Positions 138-38,811 of a stretch of 42,944 nucleotides of DNA are shown piece after piece. Position 1 is the first letter of the stretch, and each line of letters starts with the position of its first letter. The notes below the pieces were generated by a model that searched no databases, was not told the origin of the DNA, and saw only the letters and a program-made list of their open reading frames with translations. The stretch comes from Ectocarpus siliculosus (lineage: Eukaryota > Sar > Phaeophyceae > Ectocarpales > Ectocarpaceae). A program made the position numbers and the translations under genes. The stretch is from the NCBI GenBank assembly GCA_000310025.1, contig FN647684.1, positions 404,911 through 447,854 of the forward strand. Direction: 5' to 3'.

Positions 138-3100
138 CTGTCAACCGTGGCCGGGACGTACGTGAAGTCGATCTCCCTGGGCTTCGTCAGCAGGCCCCGG
201 GGGAGCGGCACCTCGGGGAGCACCTTCTGCCACTGCTCGCGGGCACTCGCCTGGTCCTCCTCCGCGGCTGCCGCTGCCGCTGCCGCCGCAGCCGCAGCCG
301 TGCCGCCGACGCCGCCGGCGTGCCCCTTGCCGTTCGCCGTCCCGGGCGCCGCCAGCGCGGAGTGGAAGGGCGTCTTCATCGCCAAGGCCAGGCCCATCTC
401 GAGGGGGATGGGATAGGGCTCGTTGCCCTGGGACAGGTCGGACAGCCGGGCGATCTCCTTGTCCTGCTCGTGCACCGAGCGCTGGGCGAAGTGCTTCGGG
501 CAGAAGTAGGGGAGCTCGGACTCCTGGCAGGGGTACCAGTTCTTCCGGCCGTCGGGAAGGACCTCCTGAGCGGCAACAAAAAAGAAAGGCGGCGACGAGG
601 GAGAAGAGCGGTTAGAGTCCACACCACACGGAACGAGGCGAGGAGAGGCGGGTGCTGTCGAGAAAGCGCGCGAAACAAAAGGGGGGCGTGCGCGTACGAT
701 TATTCGCGGCGTGGGCAAGAAGAACATATGGCTCTCCTGTTATAGAAGTGACAACAGGAGGGCCTTGAAGCAGAAACGGAGTAACAATATGGAACATGAT
801 AGGTTCATGTCGAAGTCGCGAAGACGAGGCTGGGGGTGAGGACGGGGAGGAGGGGGGGGGGGGCGATGGTTGGGAAAGGAAAGGGGGTATGGCGGGCGTA
901 AGGACGGAAAATTGACGAGGAGAGGGGCGCTACTTGCGCAACACAACAGTGGTAGCATAACAATACGACTGCAGCCAGGTACAAACGGTTCAAATAAGCG
1001 GCATGTACGACTCTCGAGCACTTTGCATCTCTCATTCTAGGCGCTCCAATAACGTTTGGTGGGCATCGATGCCGCACGGGGAACGCGCCGACAAGACAAC
1101 ACTGCCAGCCTTTGGAGCTAGCGGTCGGGGGAAGCGCAAGAATAAATATTTTAGTGAAGTTGACATCACACTGGACTCGACTCGCCTTGATTGCGCATGG
1201 AAAGTGGACCGAAGCATTACAGCTGGATACCGTGCACCCAATTGATGCCCCCTTTTCCTCGCAGATGATGCAACTCAAGCATCGGGCACGGAAGTACTCC
1301 TGCGTGCGCGTTGATGGGGGGGGGGGGGGCACGCAGACGGTATTTGGGGTGGGAACAGGCCGCTGTTGGACCGGAATGAACGGCGTGGAGGATGAGGGGG
1401 AACAAACCGGGCGCTGCAATGGACCACGTATGTATGGGTGATTGCGCCCCAGACTGAAGACGACAAGACGGTGCATTGTTACTACACCTACTTTCCTTGA
1501 AAGAGCTGGGTGGTCCACGGTGATCAACTTCACCACACCACAAAACGAAGCGGAGGAAATGGCGACTTGTCCTCTTGGGGAGACGCTCCCCGTTCCGGGT
1601 ACGTGCTCTCATTTCTGGATGTTCTTCGGCCGCTTCACTGGTGTCACGCCACGAGTTCTCTTGGCGTTTTCTCCCTCGGGCGCAAACAAACTACAGCAAC
1701 CACAGCAATACAGTGGGGGAACGGGCGGAGTCGTCCAGGCAACACAGTCCTCCTCTGAACGGGTCCCTTCCTCCGTCGGTCCCCGAAGCAGAACAACAAT
1801 GTGTCTGATGCAAACAAAGCAAGGGTATCCCGGAACCGGCCTGACAAGAAGCCATCGGGCTGGATGATACCAAGGTGCGTCAAGGAACGCCCGGTCTGCG
1901 GCGCGCTATTTAATGCGGATACCGACCAACAGGAGGAAGGTCCACCCAAAAAGGAGAGAAGACCGGGCGCGTTGGACGGAGGCAAGACGACCGGTTCTGG
2001 CGAAAAATCACACCGCCAACCAAACACATGCGGCTCCAAACCATATACTGCCGAGACCACCGAGGTCAAGCTCTGCCACTCGCTGCGGCTGCTCTTTGCT
2101 CACTCTGCTGACGTCACGCCACTTGCACTTCGGTGCGGTTTCGTCGTAGATCGTTTGCGGGCTGAAGTGCACGCAGTTGGTGTGGCACCACACGGGCTTC
2201 CTGTTCAGCGTCAGGGTTGGCTCATCGGATGCCCACACGTTCCGGTCGGTAGGGATGTCGATGAAGTCCGTTGCCATCTTTGTGTGTAACGTTGGATGCA
2301 TCGAGAGGTAGCCCGGCGGGGGGAGGGACAGAGGGCGGAAGGGGTTGTTGGTGTCGTTGGTGTTGTTGTTGTCTTCACATTAAAAACCGTTCCGGTCTTC
2401 GCTCAGGTACCTTGCTACATCCGTACGTACCGGTCCCACTGACGCGGACGCCTTCCGTGGTCACAGGCCAACTACCCAAAGAGGGGTACACCAAGCTTCT
2501 AGAACAATCTAGAACGGAAAAAAATAACGTGATCGGGGCAATCCGCTAGACGACGCTCTCGCTCAGCGAACGCCTTGGCCTCTTCCGCGACGGGTTCGGC
2601 GTGGTTCTTCATTTCCTCCTCGCTCTTTTACCGCTTGTTCAGACTAGACTACGTGTTGACCCGGCGGCAAATGAGACGGCTAAGTGAGCAGCAACGACGG
2701 GAGTATCGTAACCTAGGTCGGAGGAGCGAGACCGGGAGGCGCTTCGAACATAAAATAGCGGTAGGCGGTCGTTATGTACATCCCAACCTATTGACAGCAA
2801 CAACAGCAGTGTGGCGGATCGGACCACAGAAAACGCCGCATTCCGTGAACTCGGGTTCCTTGAAATCAACCATGAACGCCGGTGTACTATGTAAATGATG
2901 CTGTGCTCACTGCAAGCCTTGCCACTGGAGGGGGTCCCGCAACTGGGTGAAGAACTGTCCGCTCAGCAACAAGTGTGTACACTCATATCTACACATCTAC
3001 ACTGCCGTCTATGGCACATCTACACTGCTGTCTATGGAGAAAGCTCCAGGGGTGTGCGGATTGTCCATGCAGGTCGCCAAGGGGTTAGGACGACAGCAGC

Positions 3101-3247
3101 AGTTCGCACCTCCAGTCCCTCGTTGTGGCCCAGGTTACAGAAACCGCATTTACGGTCGAGCAGGTCGTCTCCGCTGCTGCTGGAAACGGTTCCGCTTCCG
3201 TCGCCGCCGTCATTGGAGCGTGGTCGCTTCAGTCCTTCGGACGCCAT
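138..3247 (-). CDS. ePHD (extended PHD) zinc-finger protein, C-terminus cut by left edge
   Basis: Likely a nuclear chromatin-associated reader. Exons (minus): 3247-3110, 2277-2104, 1299-1186 and 565-138, giving at least 284 residues; all joins are phase 0 and exon 4 ends in phase 2, so the gene continues left. The ePHD metal ligands are spread over all four exons: CGFC (exon 1, about residues 34-37), WCHTNC followed by VHFSP (exon 2), CIIC, GASIGC, SC and VHFPC (exon 3), and FCPKH (exon 4). This order matches the ePHD/PHD-zf-HC5HC2H fold of MLL, PHF6 and JADE-type proteins. The start is the ATG at 3247; an in-frame GTG lies just before it. Exon 4 then carries a run of about 12 Ala and an acidic stretch. 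The exon 3 donor appears to be a GC site (AAG|GCGAGT at 1186). No SET, bromo or other domain is visible in this part, so the full protein class is unknown. Confidence 0.72.
264..301 (-). repeat. GCN trinucleotide tract encoding polyalanine
   Basis: A mixed GCC/GCT/GCA/GCG run inside exon 4 of the ePHD gene encodes about 12 consecutive Ala, flanked by a Gly-rich and a Glu/Asp-rich stretch. The codons are mixed, which suggests an old or purified tract rather than a fresh expansion. Confidence 0.75.
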
Positions 3248-3865
3248 CACTTCGTTGCAGTGTTTTGGAGCCTCGGGCGTAGAGGGACGTCGGTCGGTAG
3301 TATCCTTAACCCGCGAGCATGTTCCGCTGCGCCTGCTGCTGCTGTTCCTACAAAAAATCCGCGTTTGAATTCAAAAAGTATTGGTCGCCTGTCCTTGCCG
3401 TACGCTCTCCCTGCTCTCGTCTACCTTATCGACGGCAAGATGTATCTGGACCTGGACCTACCAATACACTACGGGGGTCTGTTCAAGCAGACCACCGAGC
3501 CCTTCTTCGAATCTTGCAGGGAAGGGATCGCAGGCGCGCGGGAGAGAGCCGGAGCCAGCCTGAGCAGGGGGAGAGAGAGGGTGGGGGGTTTCAGTAAGTT
3601 CTGAAGGCATTGTATTGTAACGCCAAAGCCAGCGGTCAGGGCGGCCGGGGGGACACAACGCTGACTGTGACTGACTGTGACACGCACGCGAGCGAGAGAC
3701 GGGACAGTCGCACCGCCGCCCGCTGAGTGGTTGGCTAGCTCTCTACAGCTTCTGTGTCTCCGCTGTGTTTGATATTGGTGGTGTAGAATAGCTCAGCTGT
3801 GAGTGCTGGCTGCTCCCGGTGTGATACAAGAAGAAGAAGCAGACGAACCTCTCTCTGTCTCTTTC
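3248..3865. promoter_or_regulatory. Intergenic stretch upstream of the ePHD gene
   Basis: This 618-bp stretch lies between the ePHD start codon and the next possible start on the plus strand at 3866, so it would hold a divergent promoter if the plus-strand exon is real. I see no clear TATA box. It contains a short GACTGTGACTGACTGTGA direct repeat near 3661 and AG/CT-rich runs. No coding stretch with convincing splice borders is visible in it. Confidence 0.35.
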
Positions 3866-4156
3866 ATGATGTCCGGGTTGCTTGCTGGCACCGACATGTC
3901 ACCGACTAGGCTGCTCAGGCTGATGGGCCCAGCGGCGCTTCTCGCTGCGTGGGTGTGCACTGGAGACGCAGCGCATACGATCGGCTCTGGGATCGGCGGC
4001 TCAAGGACCGGGCTTCTCCGGCCACGACCGAGTGAAGTTGCAGTTTCGGAAAGCGAAGATAGGGCAACAGCCGGTGATGGGCGAGTTCGCTGCTATGGTG
4101 CGGATCGATCGGCTCGGGGTCTGTGCGCACAGATGCGGGGCGGGTCGATGGCTGAG
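3866..4156 (+). CDS. Possible first exon with signal-peptide-like N-terminus
   Basis: From the ATG at 3866 the frame is open past the proposed donor (GAG|GTGATT at 4156, phase 0). The first ~38 residues contain a basic stretch (SPTRLLRLM) followed by a hydrophobic core (GPAALLAAWVC) and small residues (TGDAAH), like a secretory or ER-targeting signal. The rest is Arg/Gly/Ser-rich without a recognisable domain. A phase-0 exon candidate follows at 6388. I do not recognise the product; this may be a true exon or chance coding. Confidence 0.25.
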
Positions 4157-5004
4157 GTGATTGTTGTTGTTGTTGGTGGCGGTGGTAGTGTTCTTACTGC
4201 TCGCAACACTGCTGTTTACGCACGCTGGCGCGCACTCTTTGATCAAGACACAATGAACACGGGGGAGGTCGCTGACCCTCTGTTCATGTACACTGACGAC
4301 ATCACTCCTGCTGTGTTGTTGGCAGCTGTATAGTCCACCGCAGTCTAGTGAAGACATCTGGTGTACGAAAGGAGGTTTATTACCCCCTCTGGTGTGTACC
4401 CTCACCATCTCCAACCCTCAAAGAAACCGCAAAAAATGCTTCAAATGTCTCTGAGGAGGGGTGTAATTCAAGAGGTGCCAATTCCGAAACTCGGAACTTC
4501 AAAACATTGTACTTACAATCTACTTTCCCCAGCTCATGTTGCAAGTATGCATCTGCAATATATGCATATGAACCTCATGGAAGATTGAAGATTAGACTGC
4601 GGGTGGAGATACCAGACACACCTGGGTAGTTTTTCAGCTCGTGTGAGAATGGTGTCCAGTCTACAGCAGTGTGTCGATCAAACGCAAACTGTGTGCGTTG
4701 CGCTTATTCTAGTTTGAGTTAAAGGTGCAGATGTATCGATGAGGCCGAGCAAGGCAGGCTTGAACAAACAAACAGGTGATGTGTTGTATCCACAGACAGA
4801 TAACGGTCCGGGACAAATTGTGTTACATGGCCAACCTTGTTTTGGTGCACAACAATAAGATGCAGAGAAATATTCGTGAGAGAGGGAGGAAGGTGATGAC
4901 CTTCAGTAGTGCAAAGGGCAGCAGGCCAACGATGTTTCGTTGCCCCAGCGATGTTTCTCACAAGGCGAGATGCCGTCAAGCACGCCACCACAGAAAAAAA
5001 AGGA

Positions 5005-5038
<34 letters not shown>

Positions 5039-6387
5039 AGTAGAGGGGTAGGACAGTGAGGCAGGAGGGAACCCCTCGTATGTTGAGTGGGGTACAACAG
5101 TGCATAGACCTGCAAAGGAATAGGGTTTGGTCAGAGGCACTCACACGCAGTCCTGCTGCCGCCTGCGTCAAGGCAGCGCTACGTTGAGGCTGCTGCCGTG
5201 CTACGCTGTATGAGGCTGTTACCGTGCTACTGCCCGGGCACTGGAACGTTGGGGGGGTCGTAGTGCTGTCTGTGCGAACACGACGCAAGCGACCAGGCTG
5301 AGAGCTACCTCCTATGTGTGTAGTTTTATTTTTGCCGACGCTCAACACCAGACAGACCTCTATCGAGAGTAATCCAACCGATCGGAGCTCTCGGAACCCC
5401 CTCCCACAAATCAGACCCATTGGTGGTCACACGATTATAGTGTGCAACAACGTATATCACTCTATGAACTTTTCGCTACCAAATGTATGCACAGCTCGGG
5501 GAAGATATATATTTGAAAACCTTGAACGTCAAGCCTGGTCGGCCGTCAGTATCGCTCTTCGCGGAGCTGGTCGAAGCTCTTGGCTTTCCGCAAACACACG
5601 CCATTCCGAAATATGAAGAAAGGAGTTCGATTACTTCCAAACGTTCTATGTATTAGTTGTGCTTCTCTTTCCCCTACTGCGGTGAACCCCACGGCTGTCT
5701 TGTGCCCCTCGTAGTTCTGTCTCCAGACTCCTACACTTCAGAAGAGTTTGGGACTTCTGAATCTCCGCGGGGTACGAGCATCACTTGTGTTGGCTGCGGT
5801 ACTAATTTGCTGTGGTTCTGGTGTTTGCACGAGATAAAATGGCCGTGTATGCTGTCTATATGGAGGCGGATGCCATTGTGTCTAGCTACGCAGCGGCAAG
5901 CTGCACGCCTCGTCTCACAGAAACGCTTGCTTCCAACGAGGGTCGAGCCGTATTTACTCCAGACCGCCCCCCTTGAATTGGTGTTTTGTGTCGTCACACC
6001 TGTATCTATACAATAGTCTTATCACCTTTCTTGTGGTCCAGCACTACCGCAGGCTGGCTGTCGAAGGAAACACGATGGGTGCAGGGTTTCCGTGGCGCTA
6101 AACGCAAGTGACAAACCAATACACTTGCAGATCAAACAGTATCATGTCTTCATCTACGATACGTACCAACTAAGATGATGGTTTTTCGCCGCTCAGACGC
6201 TACACCTGAGGGCGGTTGGCCTCTCCTCATATGCTATCGACGGCTGTGCCGTGATTCTTAGGAAAAACCCACCTTCTTGGACCGCCGGAACAAAAATACT
6301 TTAAAGGTTTTTTCTAACCACCCACCCACTTGTCGCCCGTCTTCCACGGTGCACACGTCGGCAATATTTCGTATTGAATCTGACCAG
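4157..6387. other. No convincing gene; simple repeats
   Basis: No exon with both good codon character and splice borders was found in this 2.2-kb stretch. It holds a (TC)n microsatellite at about 5008-5036 and an imperfect GCTGCCGTGCTACG-type direct duplication at about 5191-5233. It could be intron if 3866-4156 and 6388-6465 belong to one gene, or otherwise intergenic. Confidence 0.4.
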
Positions 6388-6465
6388 AATCAAGGGCCTA
6401 CCGACTACTTGTCCACCCTCCAAGACCAGAGCCAGCCGTGGTGGACAGACGGCAAGAACAAGGCG
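6388..6465 (+). CDS. Possible 26-codon internal exon
   Basis: A phase-0 exon candidate bounded by TGACCAG|AAT with a CTGAC branch-like site and by AAGGCG|GTAAGC. It encodes a hydrophilic peptide containing QPWWTDGKNK. It fits in phase with the exon candidates at 3866-4156 and 8122-8370, but there is no domain match, so its membership is uncertain. Confidence 0.25.
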
Positions 6466-8121: not shown

Positions 8122-9515
8122 TACAACACCGACGGCGGCAGCAGCAGGGCGCCAGCGGCAGTAAAAGCCAAACCCGCGGCGGCAAAAAAGGCGAAACCGC
8201 CGTCCCAAGCCGTGCAGAAGAAGAAAACGCCTACTGCGCCGAAACCCAAGGCAAAACCGAAGCCTAAGCCCGCGCCGACCAAAAGGAGTGGCCCTCCGGC
8301 GGCCAGCAGAGGCGGCGGAGGGGTTGCCGGTGTCGTTGGCGGCGTCTTAGGGAAGCTGGTCCCCGACAACGTGAGTGGGGATGCGTCGAGACGGCGTGTT
8401 ACCACCGTGGTTGGCGTTGACCTTTTTTCGCCTGTGTGTACACGTCTCTGTGCTCTCTGCCGGTTCGGCTGGGCGTGTGTTGTTGTCGTTGAATGGTGAG
8501 GGTGACGGTCCCGTGGCGTCTATACTAGGAACTCTCGCTGGCTGTTGCCCGGCTATGTTCGTCGGCGTAAAGTGTGTGAAGCGCGCAGCTAAGGGAGGGC
8601 ACTGCTACACCCTTTTCGCGATAAGTAATGGGGTCAGGCACCGCGGGGGGGAAAGGCGGAGACAAGAAAAAATCGAGGGTGTACGGTTTCTGCTGGGTCA
8701 CCCCGGCTGGCGCGTCAAACATACACCGCAAAGTGTATCATAACGCTGGTGCCCAGAACAGCTGGGACGGCTACACAAACTTCGTACGCAACAGTGCGGT
8801 TGGACGCTATGCATATTCCTTGAGGTGCTAGGATGTGTTTGTATTTGTGATAAGGCCCGTAGACCTTTGCATATTCCAGTGGCGATTGGCCCTCGGTTGA
8901 GCTGTCGTCGACCACGTACTGGAAAAACGGCAGCTTGGCGGCGCTAACGGGAACACAGCAGTGGTTGCCGTGTGTTAACCTTGGTAGGGCAACAATTGAC
9001 ACTCATGACCGGCCATTGCGCTCGCCTCCCTCCCCCCCAGGTGTGGTGTCTGCGGAGCCGTGTGTGCCCTCACCGCCCTCACCGCTAGCCTCCATGTACA
9101 ATCAGCACATCCCCACATCTCTCCTTTCTCGGTTTTCGAGAGCCTTGAACCAGCTCCTTTCCCTCTGCCCTCCTGACATTCCGTGGTGTAATGCTGGCGT
9201 GCTACTGTTGTTGAGCTGCTCCTACTGCTACCACCGCTGTTGCTGCCGCCGCCGCCGCCGCCGCTCCACTGTTCTCTTCCCGGCACTGGGCTCTGCTACA
9301 TGCTCCTGGTATTGCTCTCCTACAACTGCTGTTGCCGCCGCCGCCGCCGCCGCCGCTGCTGCTGCCGGTCCTCCGTGCCGCCTCCCGAACAGGCCTACCT
9401 TCGGTCCCTGTTAATCATTGTCATCGCGGCGCTCGGGAGCGGAGGCCTTCACGCCCTCACCACCAACAACCTGCTGCGCGCGGCATGGCCGATCACCCTG
9501 GTTGACCCTTGGCAG
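8122..9515 (+). CDS. Lys/Pro/Ala-rich exon plus membrane-segment exon, product unknown
   Basis: Two exons join in phase 0: 8122-8370 (83 codons) and 9393-9515 (41 codons). The first is dominated by Ala-Lys-Pro repeats (KAKPAAAKKAKPP, KPKAKPKPKP) and ends GKLVPDN before a GTGAGT donor. The second starts AYLRSLLIIVIAALG, a good membrane segment, and ends LVDPWQ before GTAAGC. The first exon is also open upstream to ATGs at 7951 and 7975, so its 5' border is uncertain. The last donor is phase 0 and could join a phase-0 acceptor at 10547, which would make these exons the N-terminus of the TspO-like gene. They could equally belong to a separate small gene ending around 10083. I do not recognise the family. 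Confidence 0.4.
9240..9360 (+). repeat. Two GCC/CCG trinucleotide tracts
   Basis: Pure (GCC)n-type tracts at about 9243-9266 and 9332-9360 sit just upstream of the acceptor at 9393. They probably act as intron sequence, since the reading through them is only Cys/Arg/Ala homopolymer. Confidence 0.6.
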
Positions 9516-25300: not shown

Positions 25301-27146
25301 TCCGAGGGAGCGAATCCTCCGCGTTCTCCATTACGGGGAAACTGCGCAAAAGAAAGACAAATACACACAGTTATGTATATTTTTTTATTTGTCAGTATGA
25401 CCCAACGAATCCATCTCTATCGAAGAAAAGATTCTAAGATAGATTAGAATTGAATCCATAGCGTCAGCGAAAGTTCTGTTTTTCCACGATTTCCCGAGCA
25501 GCACACAGTGGTATCTCCCCCGTGGGTGACAGGGTCAACAAGACAGTTTGGTAGCCACCTTGTGTATCTATCTGTATGTTATGCTGGGAAGGTTTAGAAG
25601 GAAGGTGTTGGGTAGTTGGTTCGGTGTGTGCGTGAAGAAGGCATCGGTGGTCTGCGACCCAACTGTAGCTACTTCAAGCCTGCTGAAGCTTCTCAAGTTA
25701 TTGAAGCAACTCAACGTAGGTCAGCCTTCCGCAGCTCCTCGTTGCGGACTACGGCCGCATTGGCACTACTACGTATTTCGCAATGTAATCCTCGCGCATT
25801 TCCGCCCATACGAGCTTACGCTACTGACAGTGTTCGTCCGCCTCCGCCGGCACGTTCTTATTTTCCGCCTCGTGGACGGCCTTTTTGTCGGCATAACTAC
25901 TGCTGTACCAATACGCGTACGATCACCGAAAGACTACCCGTGCGAGATAAATCCACAGCAGAGTACCTGTACCTGTAGACTAGTCGTTTCGCATACGCTT
26001 TTTGATCTGTTTCAAGATCGCGTGTGAAGCGAGTCTCGACCAAGCAACATACGTAAAGCTGTCACACACTCGAACCATCGGAACGAAGGAAGGAAAGAAG
26101 GAAGGAGAGAAGGAAGGCACCACAACGAGGTGGTCGGGTGACACACGATGACGGCTCAAAACGGTCACCGACACATGATTGTCCTCTCGTGTAGGTAGAT
26201 ACATACTTCCCATGTGGTCGTTTCAAGTTTCAAGGCTAGGACTGCTGGAGCCCTGGGTTAATGTAGTCTACTCCACTGCTACAACGTGGTGCATGCTAAG
26301 GGCACTCACTCGGCCCAGAGTAGCTAACGAGCCGTTGGTAATTCGCTTTCTCGCAGCGGGGAGAAAGATCAACAGGAACAGGAGAGCGGCAACTGCCGTT
26401 GTTCCTCGCCGGAGGTGCTTCGGAGATGTTGGTCGCTGATGCAGTACATGGCCCAACCATGTGTTCCTGTACTCCTCGATATACAGTACGTACTACGGCC
26501 ACTGGGTCTACCTCCCTTCACAACATGTCGAAACACTCTGTGGCGGGCTGCTGCTGCTGCTGCTGCTGCTGCATCGGCGTCTCTTGTGGGATCATGTGTG
26601 GTCTGCGAGCGCGACGCGTGTGAGCCCGCAACGGGCCAACTACTGCTCGTGTGTTCGCAAAACCGGTGGGCCATGACGACCGCATCAGCCAACCGTGGGA
26701 TCAACAACCACAACGGCCGTTAACTCCTATGTGCAATGGTAGAATCCGTGTGACAGCAGTCTGCTACAGCTGTAGTCTAGTCGACACGCCGCATGCGGTG
26801 CCGCTCACCCGGTGCCGAAGAGAGCGTTCAGCAACGTGCTCTTGCCGCTGCACTGGCAGCCGGTTACGGCCACCACCCTGTAGTCGTGGGACGCTCCCAG
26901 CTTCTCCGGCAGCTCGTCGAAGTTCACGCAAAAAGTCAAGAAGTCGTCTGCTGCTGCTGCTGCTACTGCTGTTGCCACAGCAGCAGAGGCTGAAGACTTG
27001 CCACCGCCGTTGGCGAGAGCGTCAAGCCTGCTGCTGCCGCCGCGGGGATCCAGCAGAGCTCCATCCACGCTGCTCGCATGAGTCGGGGCCGCCACGCCCA
27101 TGCCACCGGACACCAGGGCTACAAAAACGAAAGAAACTCGTACCAT
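16070..27146 (-). CDS. SEY1/RHD3/atlastin-class dynamin-like GTPase (ER fusion)
   Basis: Probably fuses ER tubules by GTP-driven dimerisation. Thirteen exons: 27146-26809, 25341-24790, 24229-23992, 23086-22967, 22458-22449, 22210-22091, 21251-21100, 20349-20190, 19412-19271, 18853-18730, 18147-18061, 17329-17229, 16313-16070. All phases fit and total 795 aa, about the length of plant RHD3. Motifs: P-loop GCQCSGKST, FGTGFPVMEN, switch I RRTTIGAW, G3 DVEGTQSRDRG, TTLFAVMAADVIMLNLWAHD, G4-like LVLRD, LSEVFDVRTCGLPHF, then a helical region and a C-terminal hydrophobic pair (PWWKGLVLRAAAMYFNYLQ; LLDLAVFLSLVCCLLSVLL). Oddities: a signal-peptide-like start (MVRVSFVFVALVSGGMGVAA), about 120 low-complexity residues inserted between switch I and G3, and a 10-nt exon. 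GTPase exons are firm; exons 5, 7, 9, 12 and 13 are less certain. Confidence 0.82.
16369..16430 (+). repeat. G-capped tRNA-like repeat copy
   Basis: A G run (16369-16381) is followed by GTCATG, then GCATGCCGTACTCGTTAGAC and CATAGACCTCGG. It lies in the last intron of the SEY1-like gene. Confidence 0.6.
17330..17353 (+). repeat. (TACAT)n tract next to a splice acceptor
   Basis: Repeats of the TACAT pentamer lie immediately upstream, on the minus strand, of the proposed exon 12 of the SEY1-like gene, replacing the usual pyrimidine tract. Confidence 0.6.
17721..17808. repeat. 44-bp perfect-length tandem duplication
   Basis: Two 44-bp units (17721-17764 and 17765-17808) differ by one base. On the minus strand each unit carries a TTTTTGCAG acceptor-like site, so the duplication doubles a potential splice acceptor inside a SEY1-like intron. 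Confidence 0.9.
18650..18715 (+). repeat. CT/AT-rich microsatellite
   Basis: CTCTCTTTCTCTCTCTATATATATATC, followed by a repeated TATCAATATTCTCTC unit, in a SEY1-like intron. Confidence 0.7.
20389..20760 (+). repeat. Cluster of three G-capped tRNA-like repeat fragments
   Basis: Fragments start at about 20396 (GTACTCTCGTG ... TTAGCGGTTAGACCACTGGCG, ending near the G run at 20471), 20652 (GTACTCATG ... TTAGCTGTTAAGACCATTGGC, ending at the G run 20720-20738) and 20739 (GTACTCGCTGTCGTGCA). The TTAGCGGTTAGACCA core looks like a tRNA D-arm or A-box. All lie in one SEY1-like intron. Confidence 0.6.
21330..21445 (+). repeat. Longest G-capped tRNA-like repeat copy
   Basis: A 19-base G run (21330-21348) is followed by TACTCATAGTCGTGCATGCC, GTACTCGTTAGACCATTGAC, CTCGCATCC, ACCCGGGACGGAGCACGC and GGGTTCTCACC. 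It lies in the SEY1-like intron between exons 6 and 7 and is the best reference copy of the family in this window. Confidence 0.75.
21793..21910. repeat. Diverged ~68-bp tandem duplication
   Basis: GCTTGTTTCACAACGTCG ... AGCGACGAAAACCCAACCCCG is repeated after about 68 bases with several mismatches, in an intron of the SEY1-like gene. Confidence 0.75.
22339..22378 (+). repeat. (GA)n microsatellite
   Basis: About 19 uninterrupted GA units; on the sense strand of the SEY1-like gene it is a CT tract just downstream of the 10-nt exon. Confidence 0.9.
23185..23345 (+). repeat. SINE-like element with internal 29-bp triplication
   Basis: Has the family head (GTGTTTTCAACCGCACTGAG), then three tandem 29-bp units starting at 23223, 23252 and 23281 (TCTTTTCATTGGTCAGCCGG plus TTATTAATA), then GCGCGGTCGATGCTAAC and an A/CAC-rich tail. 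It lies in the SEY1-like intron between exons 3 and 4. Confidence 0.85.
26549..26572 (+). repeat. (CTG)n trinucleotide tract
   Basis: About eight CTG units in the first intron of the SEY1-like gene (26808-25342). Confidence 0.85.
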
Positions 27147-27924
27147 GGCATTGCTGATGCTTGGTGGCTGACAGAGCGCGTGCTGGGGCCTTACCATGTG
27201 AAAGAATGGGAGGTTGTTAGGCACGTGGATGATCGCGCTTGCCTGTCGCATCTTGCATCGCAACGACAGGGGCCCCGCGGATTGAAGCCACAAAATGCGG
27301 GGGGTGGAGGGGTCCTCCGCGCGACAAAGCACGGGCGCACCTTGCACGGACGAAGCTCTTGTCTTACAGCGTCACCACATCCCGTCATCGAAACCCCTCG
27401 AACATCAAGGGGTGTGCGCAAAATGCACTTTTTTTTTACGTCGCGGCGGGCAACGTATGATCGTGATGTACACGAAAGGATGGTTGTATGATGTTTTTGT
27501 GTTTGCCCAAATGGTTTGTCATTACACAGCAGGTGCGACTTACCCTTGATGCAATGCTCACATCCCGTAATAAACGTCGAAACACGACATAAATATACGT
27601 CGCAACTAAACACCAAATAAAGCACCACCCACTCTGTGGTACAGCAGTGCCAGTTTCTGTGGGGCATGCGATTGGCGCATGACACATACAGAACAGAACA
27701 GCATCTGAGCGCTTTCATGTCAACACCTGAAACAGCCTTCGCCTTGCTCTCACGAGCGAGGAAGGACGTAAATAACAATACACTTCCAAGTACATCAATA
27801 CACAACAATATTTTCTGACAGGACGTGATCGACCGCAACTACAGTAAATAGATATGCACACGCTCAACTACCACCAAAAAGTATTTTCACACACCACCGA
27901 CTGCTGTGCAACCCTTCATCGCCC
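27147..27924 (-). promoter_or_regulatory. Spacer between glycosyltransferase 3' end and SEY1-like start
   Basis: About 780 bp between two tandem minus-strand genes. It must hold the 3' UTR of the upstream glycosyltransferase gene and the promoter and 5' UTR of the SEY1-like gene. The frame in front of the ATG at 27146 stays open for another 67 codons, so a more distal start cannot be excluded. No TATA-like box was evident. Confidence 0.4.
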
Positions 27925-30900
27925 CTATCGCTTCACCCAGACGAAGAGGCCCCGCACTGGCCCGTACGGAATATGCCAGGTGAGAAACGACGAGAAATGC
28001 TTGAGCGACTTCTTCACGGGGCAGAGCACAGCCTTCTGGAACCGGTCAAGGTCATCGGCGTCCCGACAGACGGGAGATTTCGGGAACATGCCCTCCACGG
28101 TCGAGGCGCTGCGGACGACTTGCAGCCGACTCACGGCCGGAAAGTGCTGCAGGAATACGTCGAGGTCCCACCTCGCCGTCTGAGCGTAGCTTCTTCTCTT
28201 GGCCCATGCCAGGATGTCCTCCTGGTCGCTCAGCTTCCCCTCCGCCCCCGCCCCCGCCTGCGCGTCTAAATTCCCGCCGCCCGACCTCACCGACGTCGCG
28301 CTCACCCTGCCACCTGGAAGCTTGTCGTCGTCATCGGCGGAAAGATAAACAACTCTCGCTCCGTACCTCAACGCTGCAAGCCGGACGGCCCGGCCAAATT
28401 CGTCCAGCTCCTGCGCCCCCCCCGCCCCCCCCAGCTCCTCCTTCGCTGCGGCCACGTAAATCGGAGAAAACCCCAGGTACGAGAGCACCTCCACGCCCAT
28501 GGCAAGCCCTGACGCCTGAGATAGGACCCGGAAGTGTTCCGGCGATCCGTCGGCCACCCCTTCCGCCGGACCCATCCCGGCGACAGCTCCTCCTCCTGGT
28601 ACCCTCCCACCTTTAACACCCCCCTGCTCCCAGCCCTCCCCCACCCCAGCATCAAACCAGTGGACGTTGACCCTTTGCCGCAAGTATTGCCAGTACTGGG
28701 CGCCCTCAGGGCCGCCACTCAAGACGTAAAAGGCCGCGAAAACGTCCCTCGCGAACCTGTTGGCGCTCTCGACACTGTTGGCGACGGCGCCGCTTCGACT
28801 CTGTCCCTTCTTTCCTCCACCGCCCCCACCGCCTCCGCGCGACGCGCACAGCTCGGGGTCAACGCACATGTACATGGTGGGCTTCCACCACGTGTACCGC
28901 TCCGAAACCCGGAAGAAGTCGTCCATCACCAGCGTGTGCATCCCTTGCAGAAGATACAGCGGCAAGCGGTCCACCGCGGTCGCGCTCGTGCCCACCATCG
29001 CCGCCGGCTTCCCGTAAAAGGCTCCGCCCATCCGGGCCCACCACCGACCCGTTTCCTCCCGGTTCGGCGGCGCCATGATCGGCCACCTCCGATTGATGGA
29101 CTCGAGGGTGGCCGCTTGGTGATCCTCGCCGGCGCCGAGGGGCTGCGATCGGGGGGGATTCGACGACCTCTCGTAGGAACCGAGGCAGTCCAGGGTCTGC
29201 TGCAGGTCCTTGGCCAGGATGGACCTCCGGGAGAGGGTGCCCAGGGGGGCGTACTCGCACCACATGGCCGCCTGCCGCAGGCGGCGGGTGCGGAAGGACG
29301 CCGCGACGGCGGTGCCGTTGCTCGCGAGGTAGTCGGCCTCGCAGGAGAGTACCTGCTCGTCCGCAAGGTACCTGGCCCTGGCGTCGAATACCGCGACCCA
29401 GACCCCGACCGTGGCCTCCTCGTTCGTGTAGGTGCGGAAGTCGTTCTTGACGATCTCTTCCGCCAGGCCGCGGGACAGGCCGTACATGCCGCCCTCCATG
29501 TGCTCCGGCCAGTAGACCCCCCTGTAGTCGAACTCGAACACGCCGTCCGTCTCAGTTTCCTCTTCTATCGCTCCCCCGAAAACCAGGCCAGCCGACGGGT
29601 CGGCCGGAGGGTCGAGGACGTTGGCTGGGTTAGCGACCTTTGCCAACGCGTGCCGCTTGCCGAAGTACAGGAGCTCCTCGCGGTCCACCGCCTTCGGCGG
29701 GAGCCAGCCCCCGCGCCCGAACAAGCGCGACAGGAACAGCGTGCTGTCGTCGTCGGCCTTGACCAGGAGGTCGAAGTCGTGGTTCTCCGTGGTCCAGTAG
29801 ATGCAGTGTTTGGTCCTCTCGGACGCCGTGTCTCTGGCTTCCTCGACGGGAGCGATCAGGATGTCCCGGTGCGCCTCCGACTCGGCGGCAAGGCGAGCGT
29901 TCTCCTCCGCGGTGTAGCTCCGGTCCTCCCCCATCACGAAGATGTGCGACACGCGAACGCCGTCCGGGACGTCTTGGAGCCATGTCTGCCGCAAGAGGTG
30001 TCGCCTCTGCCATTCGCTCCGCCGCGTCAAGATGCATATTGCTAGGTTCGTTACTTCCGCCGCGGTGCGTGTCTGGGTGGGGCGACGGTTCGGAAGGACA
30101 ATCGCGCGCGGCGGCGGCGGCGGCGGCGGCGGCGGCAGGTGCAGGGCGTTAGTATCGTGAATAGTACCAGGCATTTAATCTGCTGTTGCCGGTAGCACTC
30201 AGAAAACCACCAAAATAAGGGTCGTTCATTTACTCCATGTGGCAAAAATGAAACGCTTTACTAAACGTGGTCGTGCGTGACAAGTACTTGTATGTCGGGA
30301 AGGTGCGTGGAGGACGAGGGTGCAGCAGTTTGCATCTGTGGGTGCAGTCATCAAATTTCGGCCCTCGATGACGGCACCATTACGGGGGGTGGTGGCGAAA
30401 ACGTACCAGGTTGATGATCTGCAAGATGCAAAGACTCGAGTCACGAGTTCAACGTTCGCAGTTCCCGGACACTCCCTTGTCAGCCTGACTAAATACCGTC
30501 AAGAACCTACGACGTTTGGCACACAGGTACCATACAGCAAGCAGTGCAGCGCTGTAGCAGAGCCCGCCGTGCTCTCTACAGATGAGTACTAAACTGGCAG
30601 CATCACTCCTAACAACAACGTCGGTCTTCTTCGTAAACAGCAGCCGGAATATTGCCCGCCGGAATGAGAACGGAAAATGACGATATATGTAGCGTCGCTG
30701 AACCCGATGCGATCATGTCCTGGTCGAGCACCTCTTCGATACACCGCGCGGAGTCGTGATCACATATGTATCTGATGGCTCTGCTGTCAATAAACTTCAT
30801 TCCAAACTTATGGCCATCTTATCTTGGCCATTTGCTGGCGTCCTCCTGTCTCTGGTTCAGCGCTCACTTTTGTGGTGCAAGAGAGTCGGTCAGTCTCTCC

Positions 30901-31231: not shown

Positions 31232-31682
31232 CCCACACAGCACCGCGAGCTCAGTTCGCCGAGCGTACGCGCTACCCAGCAGACAACACTGCTGCTGCCG
31301 CACCCAACAACCCACTCAGCACTGGGAAGCCCGTACGGCTCAGGAAAAAACGCCAGGGTGCCCCGTGAATGTTGCGAACCTTTCGAGAACCTCTTTTACT
31401 GGGTACCCATGTACCCGTCGACCCGGCTGAGAGCAAGTGATCTGTGATTTCTCGGCCCCCCACTCATCAACGTCAACCAAGATAAACGTGCGAGAGATCA
31501 GATTCGCACGAACGAGGCTCGCAACACACACGCTCGCCCTCGCGACGTTGCTTGCGTTTGAAAGAACAGGTACGATTCCCTGCCAGCGTCTTGGTTTGCC
31601 CGCACGATTATTCCGCTACTGCTGCCTACGGTCAAAAAGAAACAGCGCTAGCAGCGGCGGCGGTGTTGGACACGGCCCGGAA
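31232..31682. promoter_or_regulatory. 451-bp divergent promoter region
   Basis: Start codons of the glycosyltransferase (minus, 31231) and the OTU deubiquitinase (plus, 31683) are 451 bp apart in divergent orientation, so both promoters and 5' UTRs must share it unless an upstream non-coding exon exists. No TATA box is evident. The frame in front of 31683 is open back to 31437 but contains no earlier ATG. Confidence 0.6.
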
Positions 31683-34600
31683 ATGGTTGCACCGCCTAGT
31701 CAGGAACGAACGCCGCTTCGGGCCGCCGAAAATAGCACCGGCAGCAGTAGTGGACAGGCACAGCGATCGAACCCGCCGCGCGACGGTCCTCGATGGGGCG
31801 GCGACGGCGAGAACGTGAGACCAGCGGGGTGGACGGATAACCCTGCTGCGGCAGGAGCAGCAGCAGCACAAGCGAGGGCGGGCGGCAGCGTTCTCGGAGT
31901 CCTCTCCGCAAGAAGTACCACCCAGCAGGGTGGCGGCGGCCCGGAAGTGGACAGCTACTCTCTGCTGCGTCCCGCTGGCGGTACCCCTCTCTCCGACAGA
32001 CGGCAGGAGGCTGCAGCTGGCGTGATGAACCCGGGCCAGACTCGGGGCCTGGAGCATCAGCAGCGGTACGCTGGCGGGGAAGCCCGAGGCGGAACTGCCG
32101 AGTCGAAACGGGCAGCATCGTCGGAAGCAGGAGACGTTGAACTGGAGATGTGGAAGCTAGGGCTCCAGGTCGGCTCAAATCTTGACGTGAAGGACACCGT
32201 GGACAAGTGGTGCGAGGCCACTGTCACCGCGGTGGACAGAGAGGCCGCCAGGGTTTACGTCTCCTACACCTACTGGGCACCAAAGGTGATGTCGTGGGGG
32301 CGCGTTACGGCAGCGGGGATGTGAGCAGCTCGCATGTTCAACTTCACTTTCGTTCTCGGCGGTGTGTACTACAGCGGTAGCAGAGGGCATGTTTCGTACA
32401 TGCGCATAGCATACATATGCATATGTTTGCGTCTCCGAAAAACTCACGGAATTGTATGCTTACACGTGTACGAACTTTTTTTTGCATTGGTCATGACAAA
32501 GCTTGGGGACGGCTCTCACGGAGGTGGAGGTCAGTCCTAGACTAATCTTAGCAAGACTACGAGCGAGAAGAACACTGCTGTCCAGGGATGAACCTTCGCG
32601 TGGTTGCAGATCCCTGAATGCACGCTGCAGTCCAGCCTGTGGATCTTTGGAGGGTTCCTGGCGAACCGCGGTCGTCACCCCGCTCTTTTAGGTGTTTAGG
32701 TGTATGCATGGATTTTAGCCCGTTGTAGCAAACTTTTTCGTCTCCAGTTACTTGGCCATGACGCGAACGGTCCAATCTCCTTCCACACAGCAGGTTTTAT
32801 CCGGCCAAATCCTCGTCTCATCCGTTCCTCTCCCTCTCTCTCTGTGTGTGTGTGTGTCGTACCACTCACTGCTGTCGTAACACGACATGTCTCCAGTGGG
32901 ACGAGTGGATCAGCATTGACTCCCCCTTTCTCGCCCCTGCGGGAACGATGACATACCAGCCGGGAGGTCCGCTTCGTGTTGGCCATCGGGTGGAGGTCCT
33001 GGACGAAGCCAACCAAGTGAGACACAGCCTTTCAATTTCTACTGTATGTACCGTAAGGATGCGGGTCTCCGCATAGGGGTGTTAACGTTTATCAAAGCTT
33101 TCTTACTCCACAACTAGGAGGGTGCGAAGGTCAAACAACACGTCTAAGGAAAGACCTCGATGAGATAATTCCAAAACCGCCCTTTTCGGCAGTGTTGCTT
33201 TCCTAGTTGTCGAGTGGTGAAGCTTTGAAAAACGCTTAACACCCCTGTGGGGAGACCGGCATCCTTACGGTACATACTTGTTTCGCTTGTGGTGCTGTTT
33301 CGACGGAAAAGCACGGATGTTAACTATGCCTATCCCCGCGCCAAATATCACGGATGTACATAAGCTATGCCTATCCCCGCGCGCGCCCACGACCGAACAA
33401 GCGTTTGATTGTGTGTGTAGCGTACGGGATTGATTTTCTCCCTTTCGTGGAGGCACAATCAACGGGAGGCATCCGACGGCATACATCCGTGTTCTTTGGT
33501 AGAGTAGATAAGTAGAAAACTCCTTTTCAGCAGGTTTCAGCCTTCAACAGGCGTGGAAACTTTGCTCGTCCAAGGTTCTTCGGTGGCGGTATTCTAGGAG
33601 AAAGCCGCCTAAAGGCAGAGAGGCAAATAGTTTGAGCTTCGGCGTATCACACAAATCTCATCATAATCATACTTCCATTCACGACCTTCACAGTCTGCTT
33701 GTAGCGGACTCATTTGCGCTCCAAAGTACTTGTAGCACGAGTGGCCAACTGCAGTCTCTGTTTGTTGTGGGACGTCTGGTGAAATACAAATATGGGTGAC
33801 ATCTTAGTTTTCTTCGTTGATCTCGTACACACGAAGACGGTCGTTGTCTCTCATGTGACATGTTTTTTTGTTATTGTCAAAGTCACATAGTTTTTACCCG
33901 CACGTTTTGGACACAAGTGGCTGGAAGCCGACGTGGTGGAAGCAGCCGAAGATGGCCGCGCCCGCGTGCACTTCAAGGGCTACGCGAAGAAGTTTGACGT
34001 CTGGGTGTCGCCGCGCGGGGGCAGGGTCCGCCAATACGGGCCGCATCGGGTCGCGGCGAAGGGGGGCAACAGGTCCTCTGCAAGGCAGGCTTCGCTCGCC
34101 CCCGGGCAGCAGCACGTGCGGCAGATCGCCCAGCTCAGCAGCCGGTGAGTCCTCTTGTTGAGGTACATAGTAATTGGAGAACAGAGCGGCTTTCTCCCCC
34201 TCACTGCAAAGACTTCAACGAATCCCCTTCGACTGTGTAGTACTTCCGTGATTGTGTGCATTTTTTAAGATGATACTGAAGAATCTTAAAAGGACAAGAC
34301 AGCAGTATTAAATGGTAGCGTTTTGTTGTCTAGCGCCAACTAGAAGACCATACAGCGAACTTTACTTGCTGGCTCTACGCCCTCTCTAGTTTGCTACGAG
34401 GGAACATGGGTGTGCTGGTTGTCGCGCTGCAAGCCAAGAGTTCCTCGACGATGGGGCGGGCAACGGACGTACGCTACGAGGAGAACCTATGCGCTACAGT
34501 ATGTGCTCTTGCGGTTTGCCCGATCGTTGGTCGACGTTCATTTTCTCTGTTGGTGAATCGGTTGTACTGCCGTAGGAAACGAACGCCCTTCTTCGTCGGT

Positions 34601-37600
34601 TTTCGAAGAAAGTGAGAACCCTTCATTTTAGTTCGCAAGGGTCAGCTCCACCGGCTGCCGTCCCACGTTCTGATACGCAGCCAAGGCTTGCCATGTGGCC
34701 CCCTAGTCAGGGCGTAGACAGGAGACAAATTTCTTGCCTCCTTTTAAAAATAATAATGGTACGGAAATCTCATTATGCTCCCGATACGAGGGGGACCTAG
34801 TTGGGTTCCCGCTGTTCTTTTTTTCCGACAGCGGTCGTCCGCGCACTGGCGTGCCTTGACAGGTACGAGCACTACCGGCGCGCTTTGGGCAGCCGCGGCC
34901 TGCGTGTGGTGCCGGTAGAGGGCGACGGCAATTGCCTGTTCCGCAGCGTGAGCCACCAGGTGTACGGTGACGACAACCACCACAGGCTGGTGCGAGCGCG
35001 CTGCATGGACTACATGGAGGTAAGCGAGGGTGTATCGAGGTGCCACGAAGCGACGTGGGTTGCGCTTGATTAAGACGAAACTGACCAACATGAGAGATAG
35101 GAGGGTGCGGGATGAGTGAGGCGCCAGGCGGTGTGTAGTACGAGTGAGCTATCGGGCACAGCAGTGGCTCGAAGGATTGCGAGTAGTGCTGTTCGAGCGT
35201 GTTCGTTCTCGGCGATAGGTTGGGTTGAGTTTCTCCCGCCTTTGTTGCTTTCGAGTTGGCATGTGCGGTTCTTGTCTCTTGAGAAGGAGTGTATCTTACG
35301 TGCAACGTGAGGGAAGAGCGCCAAATATAGCTTCAAAGGCGTTTCTTCGCGTTAGGCGTCACCTCATCACGAGCTTGGCGACTGGTGCGAGTGGCGTCGC
35401 GCTGTCTTGTCATATAACCTTGTTTCGTGGACGTTGTATTGTAGTCTAATTCCCAGCGCACCTCGTTGTTTTTCACCCCCTGCTACAGAGCGAGGCTCAC
35501 TTTTTCGAGCCTTACGTAGAGGGAGATATGGCTGCGTTCCTGCGGTATCTGGAAGTGAAGAGGCAGAACGCGGTGTGGGGTGACGATCCGGAGGTACAAG
35601 CTCTCTGCGAGATCTACGATAGGCCGGCGGAGATATGGGCGTACGATCCTCAGGTGAAGACAACGAGGGACGAAAGACGACAACGTGACGGCGGTGGACT
35701 CAAAAGCTTGTGTTTTTGGTCATGCCTACGTAGTCGTGCAACAACAGCAGTGGTCGTGGAGCAGCGTGCATTCACGGCGACGATGATGTTTTGCTCCGTG
35801 GCAGGATGCCAACCCGTCCCAGCCGAGCCGAGCACCAAGGGAAATTTCCGCTCAGCTCCGTTGCGAGCAACTCGCCGAGCTGCGGCAGACGATGTTTCGC
35901 TTGGTTTACAAGCTTGTAAGATCGGCGTGCGTCCGCCTGTTGCCCCGTTGGTGCAGCGAGGCAGCGGCGAAAGGACAGCAATAATTTTCGCTCGGTGCCC
36001 CGAGAAGGTTGGAACGTTTAACGCGAGCCCCGCGGGTAGACGTGCCAACTGATGGCATCCTCCCCACACGCCCACGTGATCATGCCCTCCCCCCTCCCTG
36101 TCACGTTCGGGTGCCGATTAACAAAAGCTCGGTGCCAAGACGCTACGCACGTTCCACGAAGCCGCCGGGAGCGCGGGCGGACGGCACGGATCGCCCCGAC
36201 CCCCGATGCGCCTGAGCTACTACGGCGGCGGGCACTACGACTCCGTGGCCCCCCTGGACAGCCAACCCCCGCTCGTCGGCGACGCGGCGGGGCCAGCGGG
36301 CGCTAGCGCCTCGGCCGGGAGCGGGGGCGCGGGGGGGGTGGGGGAGTCGGGGGCGGCTGCAGGCGCCGCTGATGCCGTTTCGCCCGCCCCAGAGCCGGGG
36401 CAGCTGGAGGAGGCGGCGCTTGAGCGGTCGAAGATACGAGCGGCTGAGGTCGGCAGCGGCAGGTGCGGGGTATAGTGCGGGTCTGGGATGTGGAGTGGGT
36501 CGGGTGTTCGTACAGCGGAAAACCGTTGTCTGTTCTGTTCTCTGCCCGGAGACCGCAGCAGCAGCGTGTGGGTGGAAAGGCGGTCCAGGCGACGTTCGGC
36601 TTGTCGCCGCGTCTCGTTGGGTTGCTGTGAAATCGCTTTGTGTCTGGTAGTGGTCATCGGTGATCTCAGGCATGAGAGGGAGACTTGTATCGATGCACGG
36701 ATACTTTGTGCGTCTAGAGGTGGTACGGAAGAGAAGAACACCCGAATAGCCTACCCAAGCATTCGGGTAGTCCTTTGTTGGAGAAAAATGGGCGGATGGT
36801 TGGAATGACGCTGTACGGGGGGTGCTTGTCCACAAGGAGTTGCTCTTTTGTTCAGGACCCAAGTGAGGGTGGAAATCTCGACGTTTGGGAGATCGAGCTT
36901 GAGTTTATTACCCCGCTTCTAATACTGACGCATTTCCATTGGTCAGCCGGTTGTGCGCGGTCGATGCTAATAATAATACACACACGCGCACCCCGCCCCC
37001 ATACGCACACACACACGCGTTGTCATGACACACGCCACGCCGGCGCTTTGTGTTCCACATGAAGGTGGGATCTGGAGGAGATGAAGATGCGGAAGGACGA
37101 CGAGAACTCTCCGGCGGGCCGAGCTGCCATGGATCACGCTTTGGCATGGAGCAGAAACGTGTTTGAGGCACAGGTGAAGGGACAGAGAACCACGTGTCTC
37201 AACCGATTGACGGCATGATGTAGTTTTTCACTCGTCTTGGGCAGCTCGTGCGTGGGAACCCTTGTGGCCAAATCAACTCAGCACCATTCAGGCCCTTGTG
37301 CTTTTCGACCGGCCGTGCTGTAGACGGGTGGAGAACCGCGTCAGCCTCGCGAAGGCAGTCAGCATGCTGATGGTGACCTCTTGGCGCACAGACCGGACAG
37401 CTTGCACCTCACCGCTACCATTGTCCCGTCAACCGCCCCCTACGCGTTTTCATCGCCCTCAAAACACGCGGACTGCGCGATTGTTTGCAGCCGTGGGTCT
37501 TCCACCATCCGGTCACATCCGGGCTTCGGTTCCGTTCGCTTTTCTTCTTAGGACGGTAATTCCCCATGTGATGCCACCTTGTCTTGCGCCACGTGCGCAC

Positions 37601-38811
37601 TTCTTGTGTTTTTGTATTCTTGTGGAGCGTTGGCCACCACCCCAGGCACCCCTCGCCGTCTCTCCCGCTCCTAGTGACCTTTGCAGTAACACACTCTCAC
37701 CAACAACGAACGCTCTCTTGGCAGTTTGACGACTTGGACAGCGCTCTTGTCGCCAGCGTCGACCACATGGAGCAGTCCAACCTTAGTTCGCTCGAGGCCG
37801 CATCGCGAGACAGCGAGCTCGTTGTGCTGCAGGTAAGTGAGGGGGTGTCGTATAGTCTCGGGGGACGGGGGCTTGTAAAACACATTTTTTTTTCTATATC
37901 CTATCCGTCGCTCGCGTTTTGCACCTGTTTCCTACTGTCATCTATTTGTGGCACGTACTGTAGGTCTCTTCGATCCGGCGTTGTTTAAGGATTCTCCTCC
38001 CCCAGTCCCCTGTCTTTCTGCGGTACTTGCCTTCAAGATTTCGTCCCACGGAACGATCCGTATTTGCTACATACTCCTCCGCCATGCTGCACGTACATGC
38101 CGTCGTTTCTTCGTCATTTTTCGATTCTGCATGAATCGCGGCCCTTTTCTCGATCGTTTTTTGATGACCCATGTGTGGCTATTTCGAGGCACCAACATAC
38201 ATGCCTATGCATCGCCCTTCGACTTGACCTACCTCGCCACCCGCCGTCGCCCCCAGGAGGAGATGCTGCGCACGGCGCAGGCCCAGAGCGAGGAGGAGCA
38301 GCTTCGGAACGCCCTCGAAGCCTCGCGCAACAGCGCCGCGGCGGCTGCGGCCGAGGAAGACCTGGTACGCCAGGCTATGGCCGAGTCCATGGGCGCTGGC
38401 GCCGCTGGAGCAGCTGGCGGCGGCGGCGCATCTGCTTCTGGCGTTTGCGTGGACGGCGGTAACGCGAGAGGGGACGTGGGGAGCCCCGCTGCGACCGCCG
38501 CCGCCGCCGCAAGCCACAGTGCTGCTGCCGGTGACTTTGCGACGGCGAAGGTCGCGGAGCAACAGCCGCCAAAACAGCAGCAGCAGCAGCAGCAGCAGGG
38601 CCGAGTCGCAGCTGCAGGGGCCGCGGACGTGGGGCAGGAGGACGAGGAGCTGAAGAAAGCCTTACTGATGTCGGGGATGGCGGCGGGGGGCGCGTGGGAA
38701 ACGTTGCCGGCGGAAGCCGGGGGGCCGGCGAAGGGGTTCGGCGTTGACGACTTGGAAGAAGACGACGCCCAGCTTAGACTTGCGATTGAGGCCTCGCTAG
38801 CCGGCGAGTGA
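31683..38811 (+). CDS. OTU-family deubiquitinase with two Tudor-knot-like domains and four UIMs
   Basis: Predicted cysteine protease cleaving ubiquitin chains, related to OTUD5. Ten exons: 31683-32285, 32897-33016, 33918-34144, 34434-34498, 34832-35019, 35489-35653, 36128-36462, 37065-37173, 37725-37832, 38257-38811; phases agree, 824 aa. Residues 1-155 are Gly/Ser/Ala-rich. Two chromo-barrel/Tudor-knot-like modules follow: about 160-210 (DKWCEATVTAV ... VSYTYWAPKWDEWI) and 224-272 (RVGHRVEVLDEANQWLEADV ... VHFKGYAKKFDVWV). The OTU core has EGDGNCLFRSV (D370, C373), HQVYGD, CMDYME, then RPAEIWAYDP and SYYGGGHYDSV (H492), a full catalytic set. A helical segment (AMDHALAWSRNVFEAQ) and UIMs at about 652-666, 673-687, 768-780 and 809-823 follow, with a polyQ tract between. 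The 65-bp exon 4 and the 36128 acceptor are the least certain. Confidence 0.85.
33045..33276. repeat. 232-bp hairpin element with ~75-bp imperfect inverted repeat ends
   Basis: Arms 33045-33119 and 33201-33276 are reverse complements with several mismatches (TATGTACCGTAAGGATG versus CATCCTTACGGTACATA at the ends, and AACTAGGA versus TCCTAGTT inside). It starts 28 bases after the donor at 33016, in intron 2 of the OTU gene. The inner sequence resembles the element at 9539-9753. Confidence 0.8.
36908..37020 (+). repeat. SINE-like element just upstream of an OTU-gene acceptor
   Basis: A 5'-truncated copy: ACTGACGCATTTCCATTGGT, CAGCCGGTTG, GCGCGGTCGATGCTAATAAT and a CACACACGCGC tail. It ends only about 45 bases before the acceptor at 37064, so it may contribute branch-site or acceptor context for exon 8. 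Confidence 0.7.
38575..38601 (+). repeat. (CAG)n tract encoding polyglutamine
   Basis: In the last exon of the OTU gene, a nearly pure CAG run encodes 8 consecutive Gln, flanked by QQPPK and GRVAAAG, between the second and third UIM. Confidence 0.85.

Follow-up and report, generated by a model that had tools for sequence, protein, structure and literature searches.

The human deubiquitinase OTUD5 (also DUBA) is described as an OTU domain with only one ubiquitin-interacting motif (UIM) (PMC10136533). Arabidopsis OTLD1 has been grouped with OTUD5 (PMC3950621) and is a chromatin-acting member of its clade; it deubiquitylates histone H2B, is described as having no intrinsic DNA binding, and is recruited to its genes by a partner, LSH10 (PMC9845307). 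OTUD4, Drosophila Otu and CG3251 each combine an OTU domain with a barrel of the Royal family. In Otu and CG3251 the OTU domain comes first and is followed by one Tudor domain (PMC4654579). The Tudor of OTUD4 and Otu is of the SMN-like T1 type, and these RNA-linked deubiquitinases (PMC12147562) belong to the OTUD4 branch rather than that of OTUD5. Another group of barrels, of about 60 residues with an Asp and aromatic residues at the pocket positions, is represented by the N-terminal module of PHF20 and PHF20L1 and by the L3MBTL repeats. To our knowledge, none of these proteins is a deubiquitinase. Here we describe a gene on the plus strand (31683-38811) of a 42,944-nucleotide stretch of the Ectocarpus siliculosus genome (C474:404911-447854; hereafter the window, with positions counted from its first letter), in which two barrels resembling those of PHF20, PHF20L1 and L3MBTL stand in front of an OTUD5-like OTU core, and four UIM-like motifs and two weaker ones stand behind it. 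Our reading, to which we assign a probability of about 0.5, is that this is a single nuclear gene for a protein with, in order, a low-complexity tail, two MBT/PHF20-type barrels, an OTU core and a UIM tail, and that the protein would act as a methyl-directed deubiquitinase.

The OTU core is recognised by Pfam over its cut-off at residues 337-419 of the joined protein (3.1e-17; residue numbers refer to the 829-residue form, which counts exon 6), and the active-site places are taken by D338, C341 and H497. Exon 4 (34863-35019) contains the start of the core with D338 and the catalytic C341 (codon 34933), exon 5 (35489-35653) its middle, and exon 7 (36128-36462) its end with H497 (codon 36233), followed by an Ala/Gly linker; exons 4 and 5 both match Pfam OTU and OTUD5. 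Among solved relatives OTUD5 is nearest (2.6e-21), followed by OTUD1 (1.9e-11) and OTUD3 (2e-9), and these values become 1.2e-25, 6.4e-15 and 1.5e-11, respectively, when exon 6 is removed. The resemblance to OTUD5 claimed in an earlier note on this DNA is thus borne out, and it extends to the type of core, the catalytic Asp, Cys and His, and the presence of a C-terminal UIM. The window gene probably encodes an OTU-family cysteine protease that is predicted to be active.

The window gene was rejected as the OTUD5 orthologue, since a gene on contig C15 is far closer to OTUD5 (1e-35, obtained with a query that was joined by eye and includes a small wrong-frame stretch) and is the nearest to it in the genome. 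This probable canonical orthologue lies at 5076-6428 of locus L008 (C15:3772000-3781900), and the UIM-like sequence KESLKRALAES occurs further downstream in the same locus. No barrel above chance was found in the 5 kb upstream of it with a three-barrel model, the sensitivity of which is limited for short exons. This genome appears to contain a single canonical OTUD5 gene together with two diverged OTUD5-like genes that have barrels; judged by these alignments, the window gene is a diverged OTUD5-like paralogue. Membership in the OTUD4/Otu group was likewise rejected because the domain order is reversed in the window protein, with the barrels ahead of the OTU core, and the barrels are of another class.

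Two tandem modules precede the OTU core, module 1 at 32157-32950 (residues 159-219, split by intron 1) and module 2 at 32972-34046 (residues 227-284, split by intron 2). In the joined protein Pfam MBT matches two stretches (6.4e-7; 30.0 bits against a cut-off of 22), and Pfam Tudor-knot matches residues 228-272 at 0.0015, under its cut-off. Module 1 alone scores 22.2 bits against the MBT cut-off of 22, with a match confined to positions 13-53 of the 69 in the model; a full MBT repeat has an extra N-terminal arm. Against solved structures, module 1 matches PHF20 at 6.7e-9, PHF20L1 at 3.5e-7 and L3MBTL1 at 8.3e-10 (summed over repeats), and module 2 matches PHF20L1 at 3.4e-5, PHF20 at 0.0046, L3MBTL3 at 6.6e-11 (summed over repeats, best single domain 0.14) and L3MBTL1 at 7e-11 (summed over repeats). 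The two tandem modules that the earlier note placed ahead of the OTU core are therefore there, and their class is refined, the nearest being the MBT/PHF20 type. In the second intron, at 33044-33277, there is a foldback with 42-nucleotide arms that are 93% complementary and inner arms of 34 nucleotides that are 82% complementary; it resembles a miniature inverted-repeat element.

The pocket of the second L3MBTL1 repeat includes Asp355, Phe379, Trp382 and Tyr386. In the ungapped alignment of module 1 with this repeat, these four places are taken by D171, Y195, W198 and W202, and in module 2 they are taken by D237, F260, Y263 and F267, with N240 at Asn358. By alignment, both barrels keep a predicted reader pocket of an Asp and three aromatic residues. 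Mutation of the Asp in the second MBT repeat of L3MBTL3 (D381N) abolishes methyl-peptide binding (PMC10889763). Because the Asp and the three aromatics are kept and D381N abolishes binding in L3MBTL3, reading of mono- or dimethyl-lysine by both barrels is our leading guess. Alternatively, there may be no methyl reading at all, and the role of the barrels may be binding of RNA or DNA, contact with a protein partner, or regulation of the OTU core, roles that are known for some Tudor-knot and Tudor modules. Both modules match Tudor-knot, which Pfam associates with RNA binding, under cut-off, the barrel of a second locus described below (C464) matches it over cut-off, and the Tudor of OTUD4 and Otu is found in RNA-linked deubiquitinases (PMC12147562). 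Conservation of the Asp and three aromatics in both modules and in the C464 barrel would be superfluous for a role in RNA binding only, and we regard such a non-methyl function as quite unlikely.

In the tail behind the OTU core (residues 511-829), the pattern L..A[LIMV]..S occurs four times, against a mean of 0.067 in shuffled sequences (none of 20000 shuffles reached four), and the looser pattern [LIMV]..A[LIMVA]..S occurs six times, against a mean of 0.40 (none of 20000 reached six). The motif scan places four cores in exon 10 (38257-38811), which also contains Ala/Gly and polyQ linkers and the stop codon, at 38302-38325, 38365-38388, 38650-38673 and 38773-38796; one of the four (residues 682-689) fits the looser form only. 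Exon 9 (37725-37832) has a motif that fits the core form (37734-37757, residues 613-620), and exon 8 (37065-37173) has a weaker one in the looser form only (37129-37152, residues 595-602). The Pfam UIM model is over its cut-off solely in the final segment of 63 residues (21.1 against 21.0 bits), stays under it in the first part of exon 10 (UIM 10.3 bits, with UIM_2 at 16.9 and RAP80_UIM at 18.5 bits also under cut-off), and gives no match in the stretch of exons 7-9. By motif pattern, the tail is a string of four consensus and two weaker UIM-like motifs. The four UIMs that the earlier note had counted are those of exon 10, and exons 8 and 9 add two more.

The 829-residue protein is obtained by joining ten exons in a single frame, all of them bounded by AG acceptors and GT donors (the first and last ends apart). 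Position 31683 is the first in-frame ATG, and an in-frame stop lies upstream at 31428. Exon 1 (31683-32285) encodes an N-terminus rich in Ala, Gly, Ser and Gln and the first part of module 1, and ends at a GT donor (codon score 0.160). Exon 2 (32897-33016), bounded by AG and GT with phase 0, completes module 1 and starts module 2 (0.141), and exon 3 (33918-34144), also bounded by AG and GT, encodes the remainder of module 2 (0.346). The codon score was trained on a neighbouring long open reading frame on the minus strand (27928-30174), on the assumption that it is coding. It ranges from 0.14 to 0.40 for nine exons, exon 5 among them, which places them above all 132 non-exon stretches, scored as 111-nucleotide windows in their best frame (median -0.281, 95th percentile 0.018, maximum 0.098); as the background of the score was derived from the same stretches, this control slightly favours the exons. 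Exon 6 (35805-35915) scores 0.016, similar to the best non-exon stretches.

Exon 6 has 111 nucleotides, inserts 37 residues within the OTU core, and is frame-neutral, such that skipping it gives a protein of 792 residues. When exon 6 is kept, Pfam OTU matches at 2.1e-18 and the match stops at model position 87 (2-87 of 128), with the part that has the catalytic His aligning to OTUD5 at only 0.6 bits. When it is removed, the match covers model positions 2-128 of 128 (2.3e-19) and OTUD5 aligns in a single piece through the His (1.2e-25). Only in this form is the pairing of GGGHYDSV around H497 with the OTUD5 sequence NIHYNSV part of a single significant alignment. Exon 6 is therefore doubtful: it may be an insertion, may be optional, or may not be an exon at all, and we consider the nine-exon form no less likely than the form with all ten. 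Of the ten-exon model in the earlier note, the joining in one frame holds, exon 6 is now in doubt, and the start of exon 4 is moved from 34832 to 34863: after the donor at 34144 the former runs out of frame into stops, and the latter continues the OTU frame.

We also considered whether the two halves are neighbouring genes, one for a small barrel protein (31683-34148) and the other for an OTU-UIM enzyme. A TGA at 34146, just beyond the donor, closes the frame of exon 3, the fusion spans one intron of 718 bases with a predicted splice, and a hidden starting exon may lie inside that intron. On the other hand, the catalytic Cys is not preceded by any ATG in the open frame around exon 4 (34801-35019), so that the OTU half needs some other upstream exon, and the phases of the donor at 34144 and the acceptor at 34863 fit. 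In addition, the second locus C464 has barrel exons upstream of OTU parts in the same order, which may likewise join in frame. These two observations, the missing ATG and the C464 locus, support the predicted union of the barrel half and the OTU half in a single gene, as the earlier note had claimed, and we regard the presence of two genes as highly improbable.

The genome (a 189 Mb assembly of 492 contigs) was searched for OTU domains, which gave ten matches at nine places, two of the matches being in the window; matches on C46, C26, C103 and C173 lie outside the locus comparison. The EsV-1-7 cysteine motif (PF19114), which is expanded in brown algae, has at least 150 matches in this genome, all over cut-off (the best 150 scored of 880 first-look candidates), as would be expected of a brown alga. 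At the C464 locus (L007, whose coordinates are used here), three barrel exons (one ending at 8705, then 7466-7407 and 6738-6618) are followed on the same strand by segments of an OTU core (one inside 4799-4537, where 4799 is a cut point and not an exon start, from 3603, and 2371-2271). The joined barrel matches Pfam Tudor-knot at 1.8e-6 (28.2 bits against a cut-off of 20.8) and PHF20L1 at 0.0039, and it keeps the Asp, Phe, Trp and Trp of the pocket. The joined core matches Pfam OTU over model positions 2-128 of 128 (1.5e-22) and OTUD5 at 7.2e-22, and is 49% identical to the OTU core of the window over 86 residues. Like the window gene, C464 has its barrel upstream of an OTUD5-like core, and its intron after DYFVSSQ lies in the alignment one residue from that after DEANQ in module 2, both in phase 0. 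Unlike the window gene, it has one barrel, and no UIM was noticed by eye, with no scan made, before a downstream run of N. A single exon at C464 joining barrel and OTU, suggested by a match to residues 253-406 of the query, was rejected, since the part before the OTU is of low complexity and the barrel lies in separate upstream exons. As a putative second barrel-OTU gene, C464 is independent support for the fusion.

We searched the window and loci L001-L010 with a barrel model made from three sequences, the C464 barrel and both modules of the window. As it must by construction, it matched C464 (L007) and the window (with L003-L006, which are taken from the window region), and elsewhere in these sequences gave matches at chance level only (E 2 to 8; 6.2 in L008, others at further places of the window). 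None was listed for L002 (C64), L009 (the OTUD3-like C29) or L010 (upstream of C464). The sensitivity of this survey is limited for short exons, as the first barrel exon of C464, itself part of the model, scored 0.015. Viral contigs (four pattern matches) and prokaryote contigs (33), searched with a query that spans the two barrels and the larger part of the OTU core, yielded no confirmed relative and are uninformative on stramenopiles. On contig C17 (C17:1399500-1408500, L011), a ubiquitin-like segment (Pfam 7.6e-11) is followed on one strand, at about 246-4775, by a barrel that matches MBT at 0.0024, under cut-off, and is the closest to the window barrels outside C474 in a direct search (8.5e-5). 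If this is one gene, C17 would encode another ubiquitin-pathway protein with this type of barrel.

If the window gene encodes a methyl-directed deubiquitinase, the barrels would tether the enzyme to lysines with one or two methyl groups, most likely those of chromatin, a ubiquitin chain or several ubiquitins would be held by the string of UIMs, and the OTU core would cut the ubiquitin so held. Ubiquitin would then be removed where the methyl mark is present, from histone H2B or from chromatin-bound factors. Chromatin is probably the site of action, as OTLD1 deubiquitylates H2B via LSH10 and the human enzyme OTUD5 has a role in FACT regulation as well as acting on chromatin remodellers (PMC10136533). 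Ectocarpus has been reported to be without PRC1 and PRC2, and H2AK119ub was not detected in the cited account (PMC7784034); H2B or chromatin proteins are therefore likelier targets than H2A-K119. Recruitment to a methylated histone is a fair inference from these comparisons, and recruitment to methylated non-histone proteins is a real alternative.

In the latter case, the barrels would read methylated non-histone proteins and the enzyme would rescue them from degradation, as a fused equivalent of the PHF20L1 shield. In mammals PHF20L1 guards methylated proteins, DNMT1 among them, against the L3MBTL3-CRL4(DCAF5) ligase, thereby protecting them from ubiquitin-dependent proteolysis (PMC10889763). 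The single-barrel chains nearest to module 1 are PHF20 (6.7e-9) and PHF20L1 (3.5e-7), the same type of barrel adjoins a ubiquitin-like domain at C17, and chain-binding UIMs would fit polyubiquitin better than a monoubiquitinated histone. Nevertheless, the plant member of the OTUD5 clade, OTLD1, acts on H2B (PMC9845307), and we regard a shield of this kind as a strong rival, though somewhat unlikely.

Several observations weigh against a methyl-directed chromatin deubiquitinase. The E-values for the L3MBTL proteins pool weak matches to three repeats, with the best single domain at 0.0095 for module 1 and 0.043 for module 2. Module 2 alone is under the Pfam cut-off in every family matched (MORC2 chromo-like 1.2e-4; MBT 0.0039, 17.8 bits; Tudor-knot 0.0044). 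In the pockets, module 1 has Asp174 in place of Asn358 of L3MBTL1, and module 2 has Tyr and Phe in place of Trp382 and Tyr386. A single UIM segment reaches the Pfam UIM cut-off, and the closest barrel elsewhere, that of C17, adjoins a ubiquitin-like domain and no obvious histone factor. Finally, OTUD5 requires an activating phosphorylation at Ser177 (PMC10136533).

Other features of the window were noted by eye, all on the minus strand. The open frame at 27928-30174 has 749 codons and resembles a GT31-type galactosyltransferase. The open frame at 26808-27371, with a GCQCSGKSTLLNALFGT stretch, resembles the GTP-binding start of RHD3/SEY1-like proteins, and the open frames at 104-739 and 808-1608 have a cysteine/histidine pattern that resembles an extended PHD finger.

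No OTU-MBT or OTU-Tudor-knot fusion of this order was found among the matches listed in the open-access literature, although public databases of protein domains may already show this architecture. OTU-Tudor enzymes as such are already known from OTUD4 and fly Otu, and what appears to be new here is the reversed order and the other class of barrel. At slightly less than even odds, we propose that the window gene and C464 represent a small lineage-specific family that would read methyl marks and erase ubiquitin, in which OTUD5-like enzymes have gained MBT/PHF20-type barrels (two here and one at C464), in a group of organisms where Ectocarpus is reported to be without PRC1 and PRC2. Given that report and the undetected H2AK119ub (PMC7784034), other links between methylation and ubiquitin are of interest in this organism. 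In plants, where OTLD1 needs a partner, the way in which histone deubiquitinases are brought to their sites is still an open question (PMC9845307). If our reading is true, the fusion would be the one-chain equivalent of the recruited OTLD1 of plants and of the PHF20L1 shield of animals, and would provide direct crosstalk of lysine methylation and ubiquitin within a single protein.

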